Shown piece by piece: positions 32,170 through 39,630 of a DNA stretch of 39,630 nt. Made by a program: the position numbers and the translations under genes. Each line of letters begins with the position of its first letter. The stretch's first letter is position 1. Location: NCBI GenBank assembly GCA_947629255.1, contig CANRDF010000008.1, positions 1-39,630 on the forward strand. Direction: 5' to 3'. This stretch comes from an uncultured Bacilli bacterium (GTDB lineage: Bacteria; Bacillota_I; Bacilli_A; RF39; UBA660). The notes below the pieces were generated by a model that worked only from the letters and a program-made list of their open reading frames with translations, ran no database searches and was not told the origin of the DNA.

Positions 32170-32781
32170 TCACTCCTCATTTAATATGTTTGTCAATTTC
32201 ATACGAATCCTTTGCATAGTATTATCTATTTGTTTTGGACTTTTGTCAAGTATTCTTGCAATTTCATTATAATTCAAATTATTTAACATGTACAGAAAAA
32301 CTTCATATTCAATATCGGAAAGTTCTGTCTTAATTTTTTCACGAATTGTTTTTATAGTCTCTGCATCACTTAATTTTAAGGATGGATCAGAGGAAATATC
32401 AGCTAAAGTTTCTTTTAAAGAATTGCCTTTCTCATCATATTCATAATCTAGGGATAAACTCTCTTGAAATGTTTTGTATTTTGTTGATTTATGCTTCTTG
32501 AGATAATTAATAATTTTTCTTTCTATGCATATTTGAATAAATGTTTTAAATGATGCTTCTTTATTCGAGTCATAATGATTTATAGCATCTGTAAATCCAA
32601 CGTTTGCTTCTTGATTTAAATCGTTTAAGTCAAGTCCTAATTTTCTTGCCGTGGATGCATATTTCTTGACTGTCATATCAATAATAGGTTTATATTTTTC
32701 ATAAAGAGAGTCTCTTGCTTCTTCGTTGGTTTCACATACCATATCCATAAGAAGTGTATCATCTTCTTCATCGTAATTCAT
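32170..32781 (-). CDS. sigH: RNA polymerase sigma factor, SigH-like
   Basis: 203 residues. Region 2: DSLYEKYKPIIDMTVKKYASTARKLGLDLNDLNQEANVGFTDAINHYDSNKEASFKTFIQICIERKIINYLKKHKSTK. Region 4: LSDIEYEVFLYMLNNLNYNEIARILDKSPKQIDNTMQRIRMKL (HTH). Both match the SigH (sigma-30) type. The neighbour is rlmB, as in Bacillus (yacP is missing here). In Bacillus SigH serves post-exponential, competence and early sporulation genes. What it does here is unknown. ATGA overlap with rlmB. Confidence 0.85.
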   Translation of the reverse strand: MNYDEEDDTLLMDMVCETNEEARDSLYEKYKPIIDMTVKKYASTARKLGLDLNDLNQEANVGFTDAINHYDSNKEASFKTFIQICIERKIINYLKKHKSTKYKTFQESLSLDYEYDEKGNSLKETLADISSDPSLKLSDAETIKTIREKIKTELSDIEYEVFLYMLNNLNYNEIARILDKSPKQIDNTMQRIRMKLTNILNEE

Positions 32782-33473
32782 GAAAGGCCTCCCATTTTAT
32801 AAATCAGTATCCCGGCTGCCACAGATGCATTTAAGCTATTGACTTCTCCCTTCATGGGAATACAAATCACTTCATCAGAATTTTTACGCACAATAGGGCT
32901 GACTCCTTTGCCTTCGTTCCCAATAATCAAAACTTTTTTGTCTGGAAAGCTCATCTGATTCATATCTTTTCCATCCATTGCAGATGCATAAACAAAGAAA
33001 TTGTTTTGTTGTAATTTTTTTATCGCATCTACCAAATTGGTTACTTTGATAATTTTTACATTTTCTGTTGTACCAACACTAGTTTTTATTACAGTATCTG
33101 TGACATCTACACTTCTATCTTTGGGAATAATCACCGATTTTATACCCGCAGCTTCACAAGTACGAATAATAGCTCCAAAGTTATGAGGATCTTCTAAATG
33201 GTCTAGAAGTACTACAAAATCTTCCTCTAAACAAGATTCTAAATTTTGATATTCAAAATCATTTCTTTCAAAAACAACTCCTTGATGATTTTGTTTGCAC
33301 ATTTTATCTAAAATGTTTGGCTCTACCAAAAGATAATGAATATGATTTTCTTTTAAAAAGTTAAATAATTCTTCATCTTTTTTGCTTTTACTTACATAAA
33401 CTTTTTGAATTTGTTTAGGATTTGTCATATAAAGAACATTTTTTCCAAATGCTAGCACACCAAAACACCTCAT
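32778..33473 (-). CDS. rlmB: 23S rRNA (guanosine2251-2'-O)-methyltransferase RlmB (TrmH/SpoU family)
   Basis: 231 residues. N-terminal substrate domain (FGKNVLYMTNPKQIQKVYVSKSKKDEELFNFL), then the SPOUT domain: VLLDHLEDPHNFGAIIRTCEAAG (motif 1), IIGNEGKGVSPIVRK (motif 2), and CIPMKGEVNSLNASVAAGILIYKM (motif 3). The start ATG is only ~10 nt from a TATAAT, so the mRNA is nearly leaderless. The N-terminal residues match the family, so the start is credible. Confidence 0.93.
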   Translation of the reverse strand: MRCFGVLAFGKNVLYMTNPKQIQKVYVSKSKKDEELFNFLKENHIHYLLVEPNILDKMCKQNHQGVVFERNDFEYQNLESCLEEDFVVLLDHLEDPHNFGAIIRTCEAAGIKSVIIPKDRSVDVTDTVIKTSVGTTENVKIIKVTNLVDAIKKLQQNNFFVYASAMDGKDMNQMSFPDKKVLIIGNEGKGVSPIVRKNSDEVICIPMKGEVNSLNASVAAGILIYKMGGLS

Positions 33474-33513: not shown

Positions 33514-33572
33514 ATGGTATCAAAGTTCATTTTTTAGACATTTTTGTAAATTTTTTGCATTTTTTTGACAAA

Positions 33573-33622
33573 TTCGACTTTTTTCGACAAGTTTCGACAT
33601 ACCACTTGTTGTAGAATATACA
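33573..33622 (+). promoter_or_regulatory. Promoter of ncRNA-like unit 1 with three 10-bp-spaced TTCGAC boxes
   Basis: TTCGAC occurs at 33573, 33583 and 33593, exactly one helical turn apart. Read on the other strand the last two are TTGTCGAA and TGTCGAA, the core of the Spo0A box. A -35 TCGACA (33594-33599) and -10 TATACA (33617-33622) with 17-nt spacing are present. TAGAAT (33612-33617) is an alternative -10. Confidence 0.6.
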
Positions 33623-33625
33623 CTC

Positions 33626-33845
33626 GTATTCCAAGGAAAAATTTTTGATTTAATTAAAGTTTCTGTTTTTCTTGTATTTAGTTGTCGATACCTTTTGTTT
33701 CCCTTGGAATACATCCTAGCAAGAATTCACTCATTTGTTTCTAAGGATTAATTTTTCCACTTACCTCTTATATGTCATGTATTATGTATCTCAATTCTTG
33801 CTAGCAAATGAAAAAGGTTTTCAAGTCGGCCTTTTTCTTTTTTTA
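33626..33845 (+). ncRNA. Structured ncRNA-like unit 1
   Basis: About 220 nt after the promoter. Helix 1 pairs GTATTCCAAGG (33626-33636) with CCTTGGAATAC (33702-33712), 11 bp, enclosing 65 nt. Helix 2 pairs CTAGCAAGAATT (33716-33727) with AATTCTTGCTAG (33793-33804), 12 bp, enclosing 65 nt. The terminator is GAAAAAGG (33810-33817) / CCTTTTTC (33830-33837) then seven T's. The loops are pyrimidine-rich (…CCACTTACCTCTT…). There is no downstream gene on this strand, so it is a stand-alone transcript rather than a leader. A 64-codon minus-strand frame through it has no RBS or family signal. Unit 2 is a paralogue. I do not recognise an RNA family. Confidence 0.6.
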
Positions 33846-34028
33846 TCGCATAATCCTTCTTGGCCTCGGATATAATACAACTTTATTTTCGTTATCCAAT
33901 AGTTCTTCAATTACTAAATTTTTGTCTACATATTAATAGTTTTCTGTCATAAGATTTCTAAAATCTTTTTTTAATTCATGAATATCTCTTTTTTCTTGAA
34001 CTTATTGTTTCAAATATGACTTTTTCAT
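33843..34028 (-). pseudogene. Decayed N-terminal fragment of an AAA-ATPase_like (PD-(D/E)XK-linked) gene
   Basis: 62 codons with two internal stops. The readable parts, DFRNLMTENY(stop)YVDKNLVIEEL and NKVVLYPRPRR, correspond to the start of the AAA-ATPase_like family, whose members usually read …NYYYVDKT…TRPRRFGKT. The Walker A that should follow is lost (IMR then stop). It lies between the two ncRNA-like units. Confidence 0.65.
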
Positions 34029-34073
34029 GCAAAAAAATGAAAATATCTAAATTTTTTGCATTTTTTTGATAAA

Positions 34074-34123
34074 TTCACTCTTTTTCGACAAGTTTCGACA
34101 TACCACCTGTTGTAGAATATACA
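34074..34123 (+). promoter_or_regulatory. Promoter of ncRNA-like unit 2
   Basis: TTCGAC at 34084 and 34094 and a degenerate TTCACT at 34074, again at 10-bp steps. -35 TCGACA (34095-34100), 17-nt spacer, -10 TATACA (34118-34123). The ~95 bp from 34052 match 33551 onwards with only a few differences. Confidence 0.6.
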
Positions 34124-34126
34124 CTC

Positions 34127-34300
34127 GTATTCCAAGGAAAAATTTTTTCTTCAGTTAGTCATAAAAATTTCGCCCTTCTTTCTATTACACTTGGAATACA
34201 TTAGCAAGACATATTGTAGACATATATATCCTTTCTAAGAATACAGTCTTGCTATTACAGGAAAAAGGTTTTAATGGTTATCCTTTTTCCTTTTTCCTTT
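34127..34300 (+). ncRNA. Structured ncRNA-like unit 2
   Basis: About 170 nt. Helix 1: GTATTCCAAG (34127-34136) / CTTGGAATAC (34190-34199). Helix 2: TAGCAAGAC (34202-34210) / GTCTTGCTA (34246-34254). Terminator GGAAAAAGG (34260-34268) / CCTTTTTCC (34282-34290) and a T-rich tail. Helix 1 arms are the same as in unit 1. Helix 2 arms share only TAGCAAGA/TCTTGCTA and then change together (GAATT/AATTC versus GAC/GTC), i.e. compensatory. Loops differ in length and sequence. As the SPFH gene starts ~55 nt downstream, a leader/attenuator role is possible for this copy. Confidence 0.6.
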
Positions 34301-34354
34301 TCAAATTAAAGGATCCTATGATAAAATAAACCCAAGAAAGGAGTTTGAGTTATT

Positions 34355-35140
34355 TTGAAAAATACCTATGTTGCCAAAAACAAAAATGTGAATATTCGTA
34401 AAATAGTCATTATCGTAGCCATTAGTATCGTTCTTCTTGTAACTCTTCTTTGTAGTTTTCAAACGATTAATTCAGGTGAGATTGGTCTTAAAATCCGTTT
34501 TGGAAAAGTCATTGAAACCAATATGAAAGAGGGATTTAATTTAAAAATTCCTTATATTGAAAGTATCGTAAAAATGAGCATCAAAGTCCAAAAAACAGAA
34601 CTTGAGACTTCATCTGCTAGTAAAGATTTACAAGATGTATCTACATCTCTTGCTGTAAATTTTCGAGTGAACCCTGATATGGTCGTAAATCTTTATAAGA
34701 ATGTTGGTAAAGACTATGAAAGCATCATCTTACAACCCACAATTGAAGAGTCTGTAAAATCGGTCATTTCAAAGTATAATGCTGAGGAACTTGTAACAAA
34801 ACGAAATGAAGTTTCTGACTTAGCTTTGAAAACTTTACAAGAAAAAGTGGAAAAATATGGAATTATTATTGATGAGTTTAACATTATTAATATTAATTTT
34901 AGTGAAGAATATTCTAATGCCATTGAAGCAAAACAAGTTGCTGAACAGCAATTAGAAAAAGCCAAATTAGAAGCCGAAGCACAGTTGGTTGAAGCAAATG
35001 CAACAAAACAAGTGAATGATTTATTAAAACAAACTTTAACAAAAGAAGTTTTGATTCAAAAATTCATTGAGAAATGGAATGGAGAGTTACCAACGAATTA
35101 TGCTGGAGAAGATATTTTATCTATTTTTAATTTAAATTAG
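34355..35140 (+). CDS. SPFH/Band-7 (prohibitin/HflC-like) membrane protein
   Basis: 261 residues. An N-terminal membrane anchor (~18-37), then the SPFH domain (TINSGEIGLKIRFGKVIETNMKEGFNLKIPYIESIVKMSIKVQKTELETSSASKDLQDVSTSLAVNFRV…). A helical tail rich in Ala/Glu follows (EAKQVAEQQLEKAKLEAEAQ), as in prohibitin-like proteins that assemble into ring or microdomain scaffolds. The start is TTG (34355), 11 nt after AAAGGAG; no in-frame ATG exists before the domain. Not in an operon. Confidence 0.85.
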   Translation: MKNTYVAKNKNVNIRKIVIIVAISIVLLVTLLCSFQTINSGEIGLKIRFGKVIETNMKEGFNLKIPYIESIVKMSIKVQKTELETSSASKDLQDVSTSLAVNFRVNPDMVVNLYKNVGKDYESIILQPTIEESVKSVISKYNAEELVTKRNEVSDLALKTLQEKVEKYGIIIDEFNIININFSEEYSNAIEAKQVAEQQLEKAKLEAEAQLVEANATKQVNDLLKQTLTKEVLIQKFIEKWNGELPTNYAGEDILSIFNLN

Positions 35141-35177: not shown

Positions 35178-35200
35178 AGGAAACTTTTGAAACGTTTCCT
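35178..35200 (-). terminator. Terminator downstream of yihY
   Basis: On the minus strand AGGAAAC / GTTTCCT with a 9-nt loop, then TTTTCTTTT. It lies ~120 nt after the yihY stop, beyond the pseudoknot-like region. Confidence 0.6.
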
Positions 35201-35206
35201 AAACTT

Positions 35207-35308
35207 CAGTATTAGCTTTAAGCCCATATTCTCTTCAATACGCGGTTAAAATACAATGCACGACTAATACTGGTGTGCACCATTATTATTGTAACCGTGT
35301 ATTTTTTG
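35207..35308. other. Interleaved inverted repeats (possible RNA pseudoknot)
   Basis: Helix A: CAGTATTAG (35207-35215) / CTAATACTG (35264-35272), 9 bp perfect. Helix B: AATACGCGGTTA (35237-35248) / TAACCGTGTATT (35292-35303), 12 bp with one G-U, followed on the plus strand by a T run. The order A-B-A'-B' is that of a pseudoknot, or of two alternative folds. A third small stem TGCAC / GTGCA competes with helix A. Confidence 0.5.
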
Positions 35309-35318
35309 TTTATCATTC

Positions 35319-36143
35319 CTATTTTTTCCAAACACTTACTTCCTCAGCATTTATGGCTATCGCGATAACAATGACGTAAGCAATGATATAGAACCAAAGC
35401 ATTAAAACAACAAAGTGAGAGAGTCCTCCATATAAAATATCATAATGGGCAAAGTGACTTACATAGAAGGAATATAGCCTGGTCGCGATGACAAAGCCAA
35501 GTGTTGTGAATATGGCACCCTTAGTCGTTGCTCTGCTTGGGATATCTGTATCTGGAGCCATGGTGTAAATAATTTTAATGAGTAGGAAAATGAGTAACCA
35601 TGATACTGGACCTTTTGATAGATTAATGATAAAGGTAATAATAGAAGTGACTGTTTCATTCATATTTACATATTTTATCAGTTCAATAAAACGGTCTCCA
35701 AAAGCTGGTATGAGTAATAAAAATAAGATTAGAGTAATTAAGATAAATGTCATAATTAAAGATTTTATTTTTCTTTTTAGATAACTTGTATTTTCACATT
35801 GATATAACTGATTTGAGGTAATAATTAACGAACTTGTCCCCGCACTCGCGGCTAGAAAGGAAATCATAACCAAGATAACAAAGTTTGGAGTGAATTTAAT
35901 TTCTTCAATGATTGGCATGATAAGGTCTTTGATTTCTCCTCCAAATGCCTTTAATAAGAAGTTCCCAATAAAATCATAGGAAAAATGAAAAAGGGAAGCT
36001 CCATATAAAATTAAGGTTATCATTGGCACAACGGCAAGCAAGAAAAAGAAAGCAAGTTGTCCGGGTAGTATTAACATTTGAGGTTTTGCTAATATTTTCC
36101 ATAACCGTTTTATGACTCTTTTTGCTTTCTCTATTAATTTCAT
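35319..36143 (-). CDS. YihY/BrkB-family polytopic membrane protein
   Basis: 274 residues with about six transmembrane segments. The family patterns are PGQLAFFFLLAVVPMITLILYGASLF at the N-terminus, SAGTSSLIITSNQLYQCENTSYLKRKIKSL in the middle, and GGLSHFVVLMLWFYIIAYVIVIAIAINAE at the end. The function of YihY-family proteins is not settled. ATGA overlap with the GGDEF gene upstream. Confidence 0.88.
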   Translation of the reverse strand: MKLIEKAKRVIKRLWKILAKPQMLILPGQLAFFFLLAVVPMITLILYGASLFHFSYDFIGNFLLKAFGGEIKDLIMPIIEEIKFTPNFVILVMISFLAASAGTSSLIITSNQLYQCENTSYLKRKIKSLIMTFILITLILFLLLIPAFGDRFIELIKYVNMNETVTSIITFIINLSKGPVSWLLIFLLIKIIYTMAPDTDIPSRATTKGAIFTTLGFVIATRLYSFYVSHFAHYDILYGGLSHFVVLMLWFYIIAYVIVIAIAINAEEVSVWKK

Positions 36144-39484: not shown

Positions 39485-39555
39485 AAAATTCTCCTATTTT
39501 CCCTGTAAAATTTATTCTAACACACAACCCCTTTATAATCAATCTCATCTGTTAA

Positions 39556-39630
39556 TCGAGTAGAGAAAACTTTTAAGTATTTTTCCCTCTCACACCACCG
39601 TACGTACCGTTCGGTATACGGCGGTTTAAT
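39556..39630 (-). mobile_element. 3' end of a group II intron (domains V and VI), class C-like
   Basis: On the minus strand domain V is ACCGCCGTA-TACC-GAAC-GGTA, then a CG bulge, then TACGGTGGT. Stem arms are at 39625-39617 and 39602-39594, with a two-base CG bulge at 39604-39603. The CGC in the first arm fits the catalytic triad of class C introns. A domain VI-like hairpin follows, rich in A/T with TCTAC(T)C near 39565. The intron body, including any reverse-transcriptase gene, lies past the window's right edge. The exact 3' splice site (near 39556) is estimated. Confidence 0.75.

Follow-up and report, generated by a model that had tools for sequence, protein, structure and literature searches.

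Two predicted paralogous genes for small RNAs (~225 and ~178 nt), which each have a promoter and a terminator of their own and are putatively controlled by Spo0A, lie side by side in the genome (G000) of an uncultured spore-forming gut bacterium, and the second of them would act in trans on Shine–Dalgarno (SD) sequences; we consider this reading of the locus fairly probable. Both units are contained in the 881 bp that separate rlmB from a Band_7/SPFH gene in the window, by which we mean the whole stretch of 39,630 nucleotides that was analysed. The original prediction of two tandem structured RNA-like units was confirmed at this place, and its interpretation is partly supported.

Layout of the two units

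The promoter and the 5′ arm of the first helix form a direct repeat (33547–33656 and 34048–34157) of 110 nt with 91% identity at a spacing of 501, which bears out the predicted pair of units about 500 bp apart with a shared upstream block and the same helix-1 arms (GTATTCCAAG/CTTGGAATAC, identical in both units). Past the 110-nt repeat the loops of the units have diverged, also as predicted. Both units follow one design, namely TTCGACA-AGT-TTCGACA, the spacer ATACCACYTGTTG, TAGAAT, ACACTCGTATTCCAAG..., hairpin 1, hairpin 2 and a terminator hairpin, and the features of the locus are as follows:

32170–32781, − strand: SigH-like sigma factor gene, adjoining rlmB (TIGR02859 spore_sigH, 95 bits, below the curated cut-off of 294.8)
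32778–33473, − strand: rlmB
33573–33599, + strand: unit 1 box array, TTCGACT (33573), TTCGACA (33583) and TTCGACA (33593) at exact 10-bp steps
33612–33617, + strand: unit 1 −10-like element TAGAAT, at a distance of 22 bp from the middle-box TCGACA (sigma class predicted)
33622–33845, + strand: sRNA unit 1, fold z −4.44 (transcript ends predicted)
33626–33712, + strand: unit 1 helix 1, 33626–33640 with 33698–33712, pyrimidine-rich loop
33716–33804, + strand: unit 1 helix 2, 33716–33727 with 33793–33804, CUUACCUCUU in the loop
33810–33844, + strand: unit 1 intrinsic terminator, from the terminator scan
33850–34024, − strand: remnant, lying between the units, of an AAA-ATPase_like (PF09820) gene, reading ..ENY*YVDKNLVIEELLDNENKVVLYPRPRR..
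34074–34100, + strand: unit 2 boxes, TTCGACA (34084) and TTCGACA (34094), the distal one decayed to TTCACTC (34074)
34113–34118, + strand: unit 2 −10-like element TAGAAT, part of a copy of the promoter module
34123–34300, + strand: sRNA unit 2, fold z −5.65 (transcript ends predicted)
34127–34199, + strand: unit 2 helix 1, 34127–34136 with 34190–34199, anti-Shine–Dalgarno-like CGCCCUUCUUUCUAUUA (34171–34187) in the loop
34202–34254, + strand: unit 2 helix 2, 34202–34210 with 34246–34254, AUAUCCUUUCUA (34226–34237) in the loop
34259–34300, + strand: unit 2 terminator hairpin, arms 34259–34268/34282–34291, interrupted T tail
34355–35140, + strand: SPFH/Band_7 protein gene downstream of unit 2 (context)

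The relic between the units (YVDK...VVLYPRPRR, 175 bp) has 67% DNA identity to an intact-looking paralogue on another contig (C11) of the same genome, which matches PF09820 with an E-value of 4e-27, and similar genes are present in the genome G001. The pair of units probably arose by duplication, with a gene inserted between the copies and then lost. The sigH-like gene that had been pointed out nearby is indeed present, but it is simply the next gene after rlmB, and its position is uninformative.

Two other elements were seen in the window. A group II intron match (RF00029, 47.6 bits) lies at 39555–39626 on the − strand, and a CAGTATTA...TAATACTG element at 35190–35300 lies in the leader of a BrkB/YihY-like gene (35319–36143, − strand). 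Sequence and place of the latter are kept in G019 and G024 (loci L041 and L042) and it has no Rfam match, and it is possibly an undescribed leader RNA.

Folding and terminators

Unit 1 folds at −47.2 kcal/mol (z −4.44) and unit 2 at −40.6 kcal/mol (z −5.65), and none of the 200 dinucleotide shuffles that served as controls for each unit folded as well. Two hairpins and a terminator of its own had been ascribed to each unit; both units fold beyond their shuffles and the terminator of unit 1 was picked up by the scan (1 found, 0.2 expected), but the terminator of unit 2, a clear hairpin with an interrupted T tail, was missed by the strict scan. No SD-led ORF was present in either unit, and in sequence both are independent transcription units with promoter, terminator and no ORF, the terminator of unit 2 being the weaker.

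The arms of helix 2 in unit 1 are CTAGCAAGAATT/AATTCTTGCTAG. The claim that this helix is kept by matched changes between the paralogues (GAATT/AATTC versus GAC/GTC) holds for one compensated pair (A-U to C-G), and the remainder is a length change; because there are only four sequences, two of each kind, helix-2 covariation is limited to this one compensatory pair. Thus the structure and the lack of an SD-led ORF agree with the proposal of a selected RNA rather than coding DNA, but the covariation behind that proposal comes down to a single pair.

Distribution and conservation

Among 37 genomes of the genus, the unit pair was found only in G000 and its sister species G048. A covariance model of both units, as had been proposed, could be built and finds both of them, but across these genomes its only further matches are the two orthologues in G048; the pair is in only two species, and covariance modelling across homologues is therefore impossible. 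A search for the helix-1 pattern over 84,980 species genomes gave a sole match, CANPXO010000002.1, a contig of the metagenome-assembled genome G048 itself. No homologue beyond G048 was found by DNA, rlmB synteny, covariance model or pattern. The rlmB neighbourhoods of G047, G019, G024, G016 and G042, the next closest relatives looked at, carry other sequences there, and phage and viral collections held no homologue of the units. A weak match in L042 (25 bits), situated in the leader region of BrkB, was dismissed. The units do not look like a MITE or repeat family, which would have terminal inverted repeats and many copies in the genome; there are two copies per genome, and the helix-1 arms occur as a close inverted pair at the units only. 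The predicted RNA family is young and lineage-specific.

Between G000 and G048, unit 1 has 4 substitutions in 218 aligned bases (1.8%), and unit 2 has 10 in 173 (5.8%), mostly in loops. These values prove nothing in themselves, because intergenic DNA between the two genomes generally differs by just 1–8% (fourfold sites differ by 20–40% in most genes) and the relic spacer between the units by 3%, that is, it is 97% conserved; we thus did not accept such conservation as proof that the units are functional, since the relic and the other intergenic stretches of the window are just as well conserved. The distribution of the changes is another matter: the helices carry zero substitutions, and stems plus terminators are changed at 1 of 171 positions versus 13 of 220 in the loops (Fisher p 0.005), which is moderate evidence for a conserved structure.

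Putative Spo0A boxes

Three TTCGAC boxes at 10-bp steps had been described; they are all present in unit 1, but unit 2 keeps two of them and its distal box is decayed. The TGTCGAA core is established for B. subtilis and C. difficile and its contacts are described (PMC3485338), and TTCGACA is its complement. The suggestion that the boxes are read by Spo0A, and that a Spo0A-like regulator should be sought in the genome, has fared well: one Spo0A is encoded in G000, and its recognition helix SRVERAIRHAIEV is letter-identical to those of the solved Spo0A DNA-binding domains PDB 1LQ1 and 1FC3. Moreover, a TTCGACA box (at least 6 of 7 positions) is found 93–133 bp before the start of spo0A in 29/29 genus members examined, and 17 of the 29 have another at a distance of exactly 10 bp, although the spo0A promoters across the genus are homologous and therefore are not independent draws. 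SpoIVA is present in 32 of the 37 genus genomes and SpoIIGA in both G000 and G048, and this is therefore a sporulating lineage. Because recognition helix, genus-wide spo0A boxes, TGTCGAA core and sporulation genes agree, the Spo0A assignment is the best-supported part of the analysis, and control of both units by Spo0A, with the boxes as putative Spo0A sites, is strongly supported by the sequence comparisons.

No ordinary sigma-70 promoter with a spacing of 16–18 was present at either unit. The distance from the middle-box hexamer TCGACA to TAGAAT is 22 bp. At the spoIIG promoter of B. subtilis, 0A boxes lie over the −35 region with a 22-bp spacer to the −10, an arrangement typical of activation by Spo0A~P. 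The boxes over the −35 region and the 22-bp spacer are shared by the sRNA units, and activation is therefore suggested; however, the units have one more box between −35 and −10, so that the sign of Spo0A control could also be repression, and their product would be an RNA and not sigma-E. The element TAGAAT (GTAGAATAT) would suit sigma-A or SigH, and no SigH-type −35 was seen by eye at the units.

Recurrence of the promoter module

The module TTCGACAnnnTTCGACATACCnnnTGTTGTAGAAT was found at 7 sites in G000 and 8 in G048 at up to 3 mismatches, with 0 for the reversed control; counting two further sites in G000 with other spacer lengths, the total is 17 in the two genomes. Besides the four sRNA copies, the module precedes mostly PDDEXK_2 (PF12784, PD-(D/E)XK) genes and once a P-loop kinase-like gene. 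In two of the copies associated with PDDEXK_2 genes (L099 and L100) the C runs of the spacer are longer or shorter, with 15 and 11 versus 12 nt from the proximal box to TAGAAT, and the N-terminus of the PDDEXK_2 gene falls outside the longest open frame.

With a looser definition, tandem boxes at 10 bp number 44 in G000 (about 45) versus 1 in the control and 32 in G048 versus 1, while G024 has 17, G047 has 9 and the other genus genomes have 0–4; a strong multiplication is thus seen in only four related genomes, G000, G048, G024 and G047. The loci behind the tandem boxes include spo0A, a SpoVIF gene, a HAAS-domain gene and several PDDEXK_2 genes. The boxes read in G000 and G048 lie mostly before PDDEXK_2 genes; these belong to several subfamilies and their core promoters differ, as though the nucleases had been linked to sporulation. 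In addition, TTTTTCGTGAAAAATCGTTCGACAAATTTCGACAAATGCCCATTTTATGGGC, a repeat that contains two boxes, occurs on several contigs (L105, L106, L110, L113, L114, L115 and L116) with no obvious gene directly after it. With the box rule derived here, in which TTCGACA recurs at 10-bp steps and spo0A itself serves as the anchor, the Spo0A regulon of the genus can be read from sequence.

Pairing of the loops with start regions

The units were paired in silico, with accessibility included in the energies, against a sample of 203 start regions that came from the window and from ten further stretches of this genome. Strong sites of unit 2 number 24 in start regions versus 1 in gene interiors. When its best pairings to 50 start regions were averaged, 1 of the 99 shuffles of its loops did as well, and in the number of strong pairings 0 of the 99 did. 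The segments responsible are CGCCCUUCUUUCUAUUA and AUAUCCUUUCUA, which are unchanged in G048, and the loop stretch CAGUUAGUCAUAAAAA beside them is changed there in several places. The loops of unit 1 pair with start regions no better than their shuffles. A trans-acting, SD-masking role is thus supported in silico for unit 2, while for unit 1 it is no more than an assumption, and at least one of the units looks built to block ribosome-binding sites.

spo0A was rejected as a standout target, ranking 12 of 203 for unit 1 and 58 of 203 for unit 2. The start region of a co-regulated PDDEXK_2 gene on another contig (C75) pairs with unit 2 at −16.6 kcal/mol, better than all 203, in a nearly unbroken stretch that takes in the SD and the start codon. 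We rejected PDDEXK_2 mRNAs as conserved targets, the pairing being strong in G000 and absent in G048. An enlarged Spo0A regulon, in which multiplied PD-(D/E)XK nuclease genes and the sRNA pair share one module and unit 2 restrains translation of the nucleases, is kept as speculation because the C75 pairing is not kept in G048, and we think it very improbable.

Proposed mechanism and alternatives

In the mechanism that we propose, Spo0A~P would bind the 10-bp-phased TTCGACA boxes (in reverse TGTCGAA) overlapping the −35 region, and most likely activate RNA polymerase at the TAGAAT −10 across the 22-bp spacer. In both RNAs, two rigid helices would be maintained and long loops rich in pyrimidines left exposed. 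Unit 2 would most likely pair its CCCUUCUUUCU and AUCCUUUCU segments in trans with SD regions, thus lowering the translation of some mRNAs on entry into sporulation, and unit 1 is a diverged copy that would have different targets.

Unit 2 and Band_7 share a strand, with 55 bp between the end of the unit and the start codon of the gene, and the broken T tail of unit 2, which fails the strict scan, could be that of a conditional terminator, so that unit 2 might be a cis-acting leader of the SPFH/Band_7 gene (34355) and unit 1 its orphaned duplicate. However, unit 1 has the same build and a strong terminator followed only by the antisense relic, with no same-strand gene; a 5′-UTR position before a co-oriented gene, as in a riboswitch or attenuator, is found for unit 2 only and not for both copies. 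Neither is there an Rfam riboswitch or leader match, and a promoter-like TAAAAT (ending at 34327) stands between unit 2 and Band_7, although such motifs are equally frequent in shuffles. We consider the leader quite unlikely. About equally improbable in our view are functionless transcripts, by-products of a mobile or multiplied 35-bp Spo0A-type promoter that spread with PDDEXK_2 genes. Such an origin would agree with the place of the module mostly before PDDEXK_2 genes, with the mobile-type gene relic between the units and with the expansion of the boxes in four genus genomes only, but the RNA parts lie outside the multiplied element and the covariance model finds only two units per genome; moreover, changes have affected the loops and left the helices whole in either copy and either species, and each unit has kept a terminator.

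The sign and the identity of the regulator leave room for a different course of events, in which the boxes are bound by another regulator, or Spo0A represses, so that synthesis of the RNAs takes place during growth and stops at sporulation. A protein bound at the proximal box, at about −31 to −25 and thus between the −35 and −10 positions, could block polymerase, and the uncommonly low variation of the spacer ATACCnCCTGTTG could mean that another factor reads it. Against this alternative, spo0A is preceded by such boxes throughout the genus and the Spo0A encoded here has the known recognition helix, and we regard it as unlikely. Activation of two paralogous sRNA genes by Spo0A remains the reading that we prefer.

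Comparison with known systems

Rfam gave no relevant match for either unit at gathering or relaxed thresholds, in line with the earlier statement that no known RNA family was recognised, and the papers searched held nothing on sporulation control in this uncultured gut lineage. The LhrC family of Listeria consists of multi-copy tandem sRNAs that form hairpins with pyrimidine-rich loops and have promoters under a response regulator. As the precedent that it had been suggested to be, LhrC holds for the layout, that is, tandem copies, pyrimidine-rich hairpin loops and response-regulator control, but not for kinship: a covariance-model match is absent at either threshold, and the type of regulator and the build differ. 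Tandem copies are also known for 6S RNA in the Bacillus cereus group; 6S RNA was ruled out, as the units have two separate hairpins, not one long hairpin with a central bubble, and no Rfam match.

SurA of Bacillus subtilis is an sRNA controlled by Spo0A. CsfG belongs to the sporulation programme and is said to be conserved among spore formers (Marchais 2011, via PMC12456014). Like these, the units would be genes for small RNAs that are turned on during sporulation; the known examples, however, are by description single genes, and CsfG, as far as that account goes, is conserved among spore formers whereas the unit pair is in two species only. In Clostridioides difficile, SpoY and SpoX act on spo0A mRNA, and SpoY, by binding a G-rich motif that resembles an RBS, prevents translation of its target spo0A (PMC10267692). 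These too are sRNAs that belong to the Spo0A circuit of a spore-forming species, and by description unit 2 resembles SpoY in its pyrimidine segments directed at SD sequences; here, in contrast, the Spo0A boxes are on the sRNA promoters and spo0A is no standout target. The units are thus a predicted new RNA family of a known kind, if true an undescribed family that would join the few sRNAs directly linked to the master regulator of sporulation, and the nearest known systems, compared by description, would be SpoY by function, the SurA-type Spo0A-dependent sRNAs by control and LhrC by layout.
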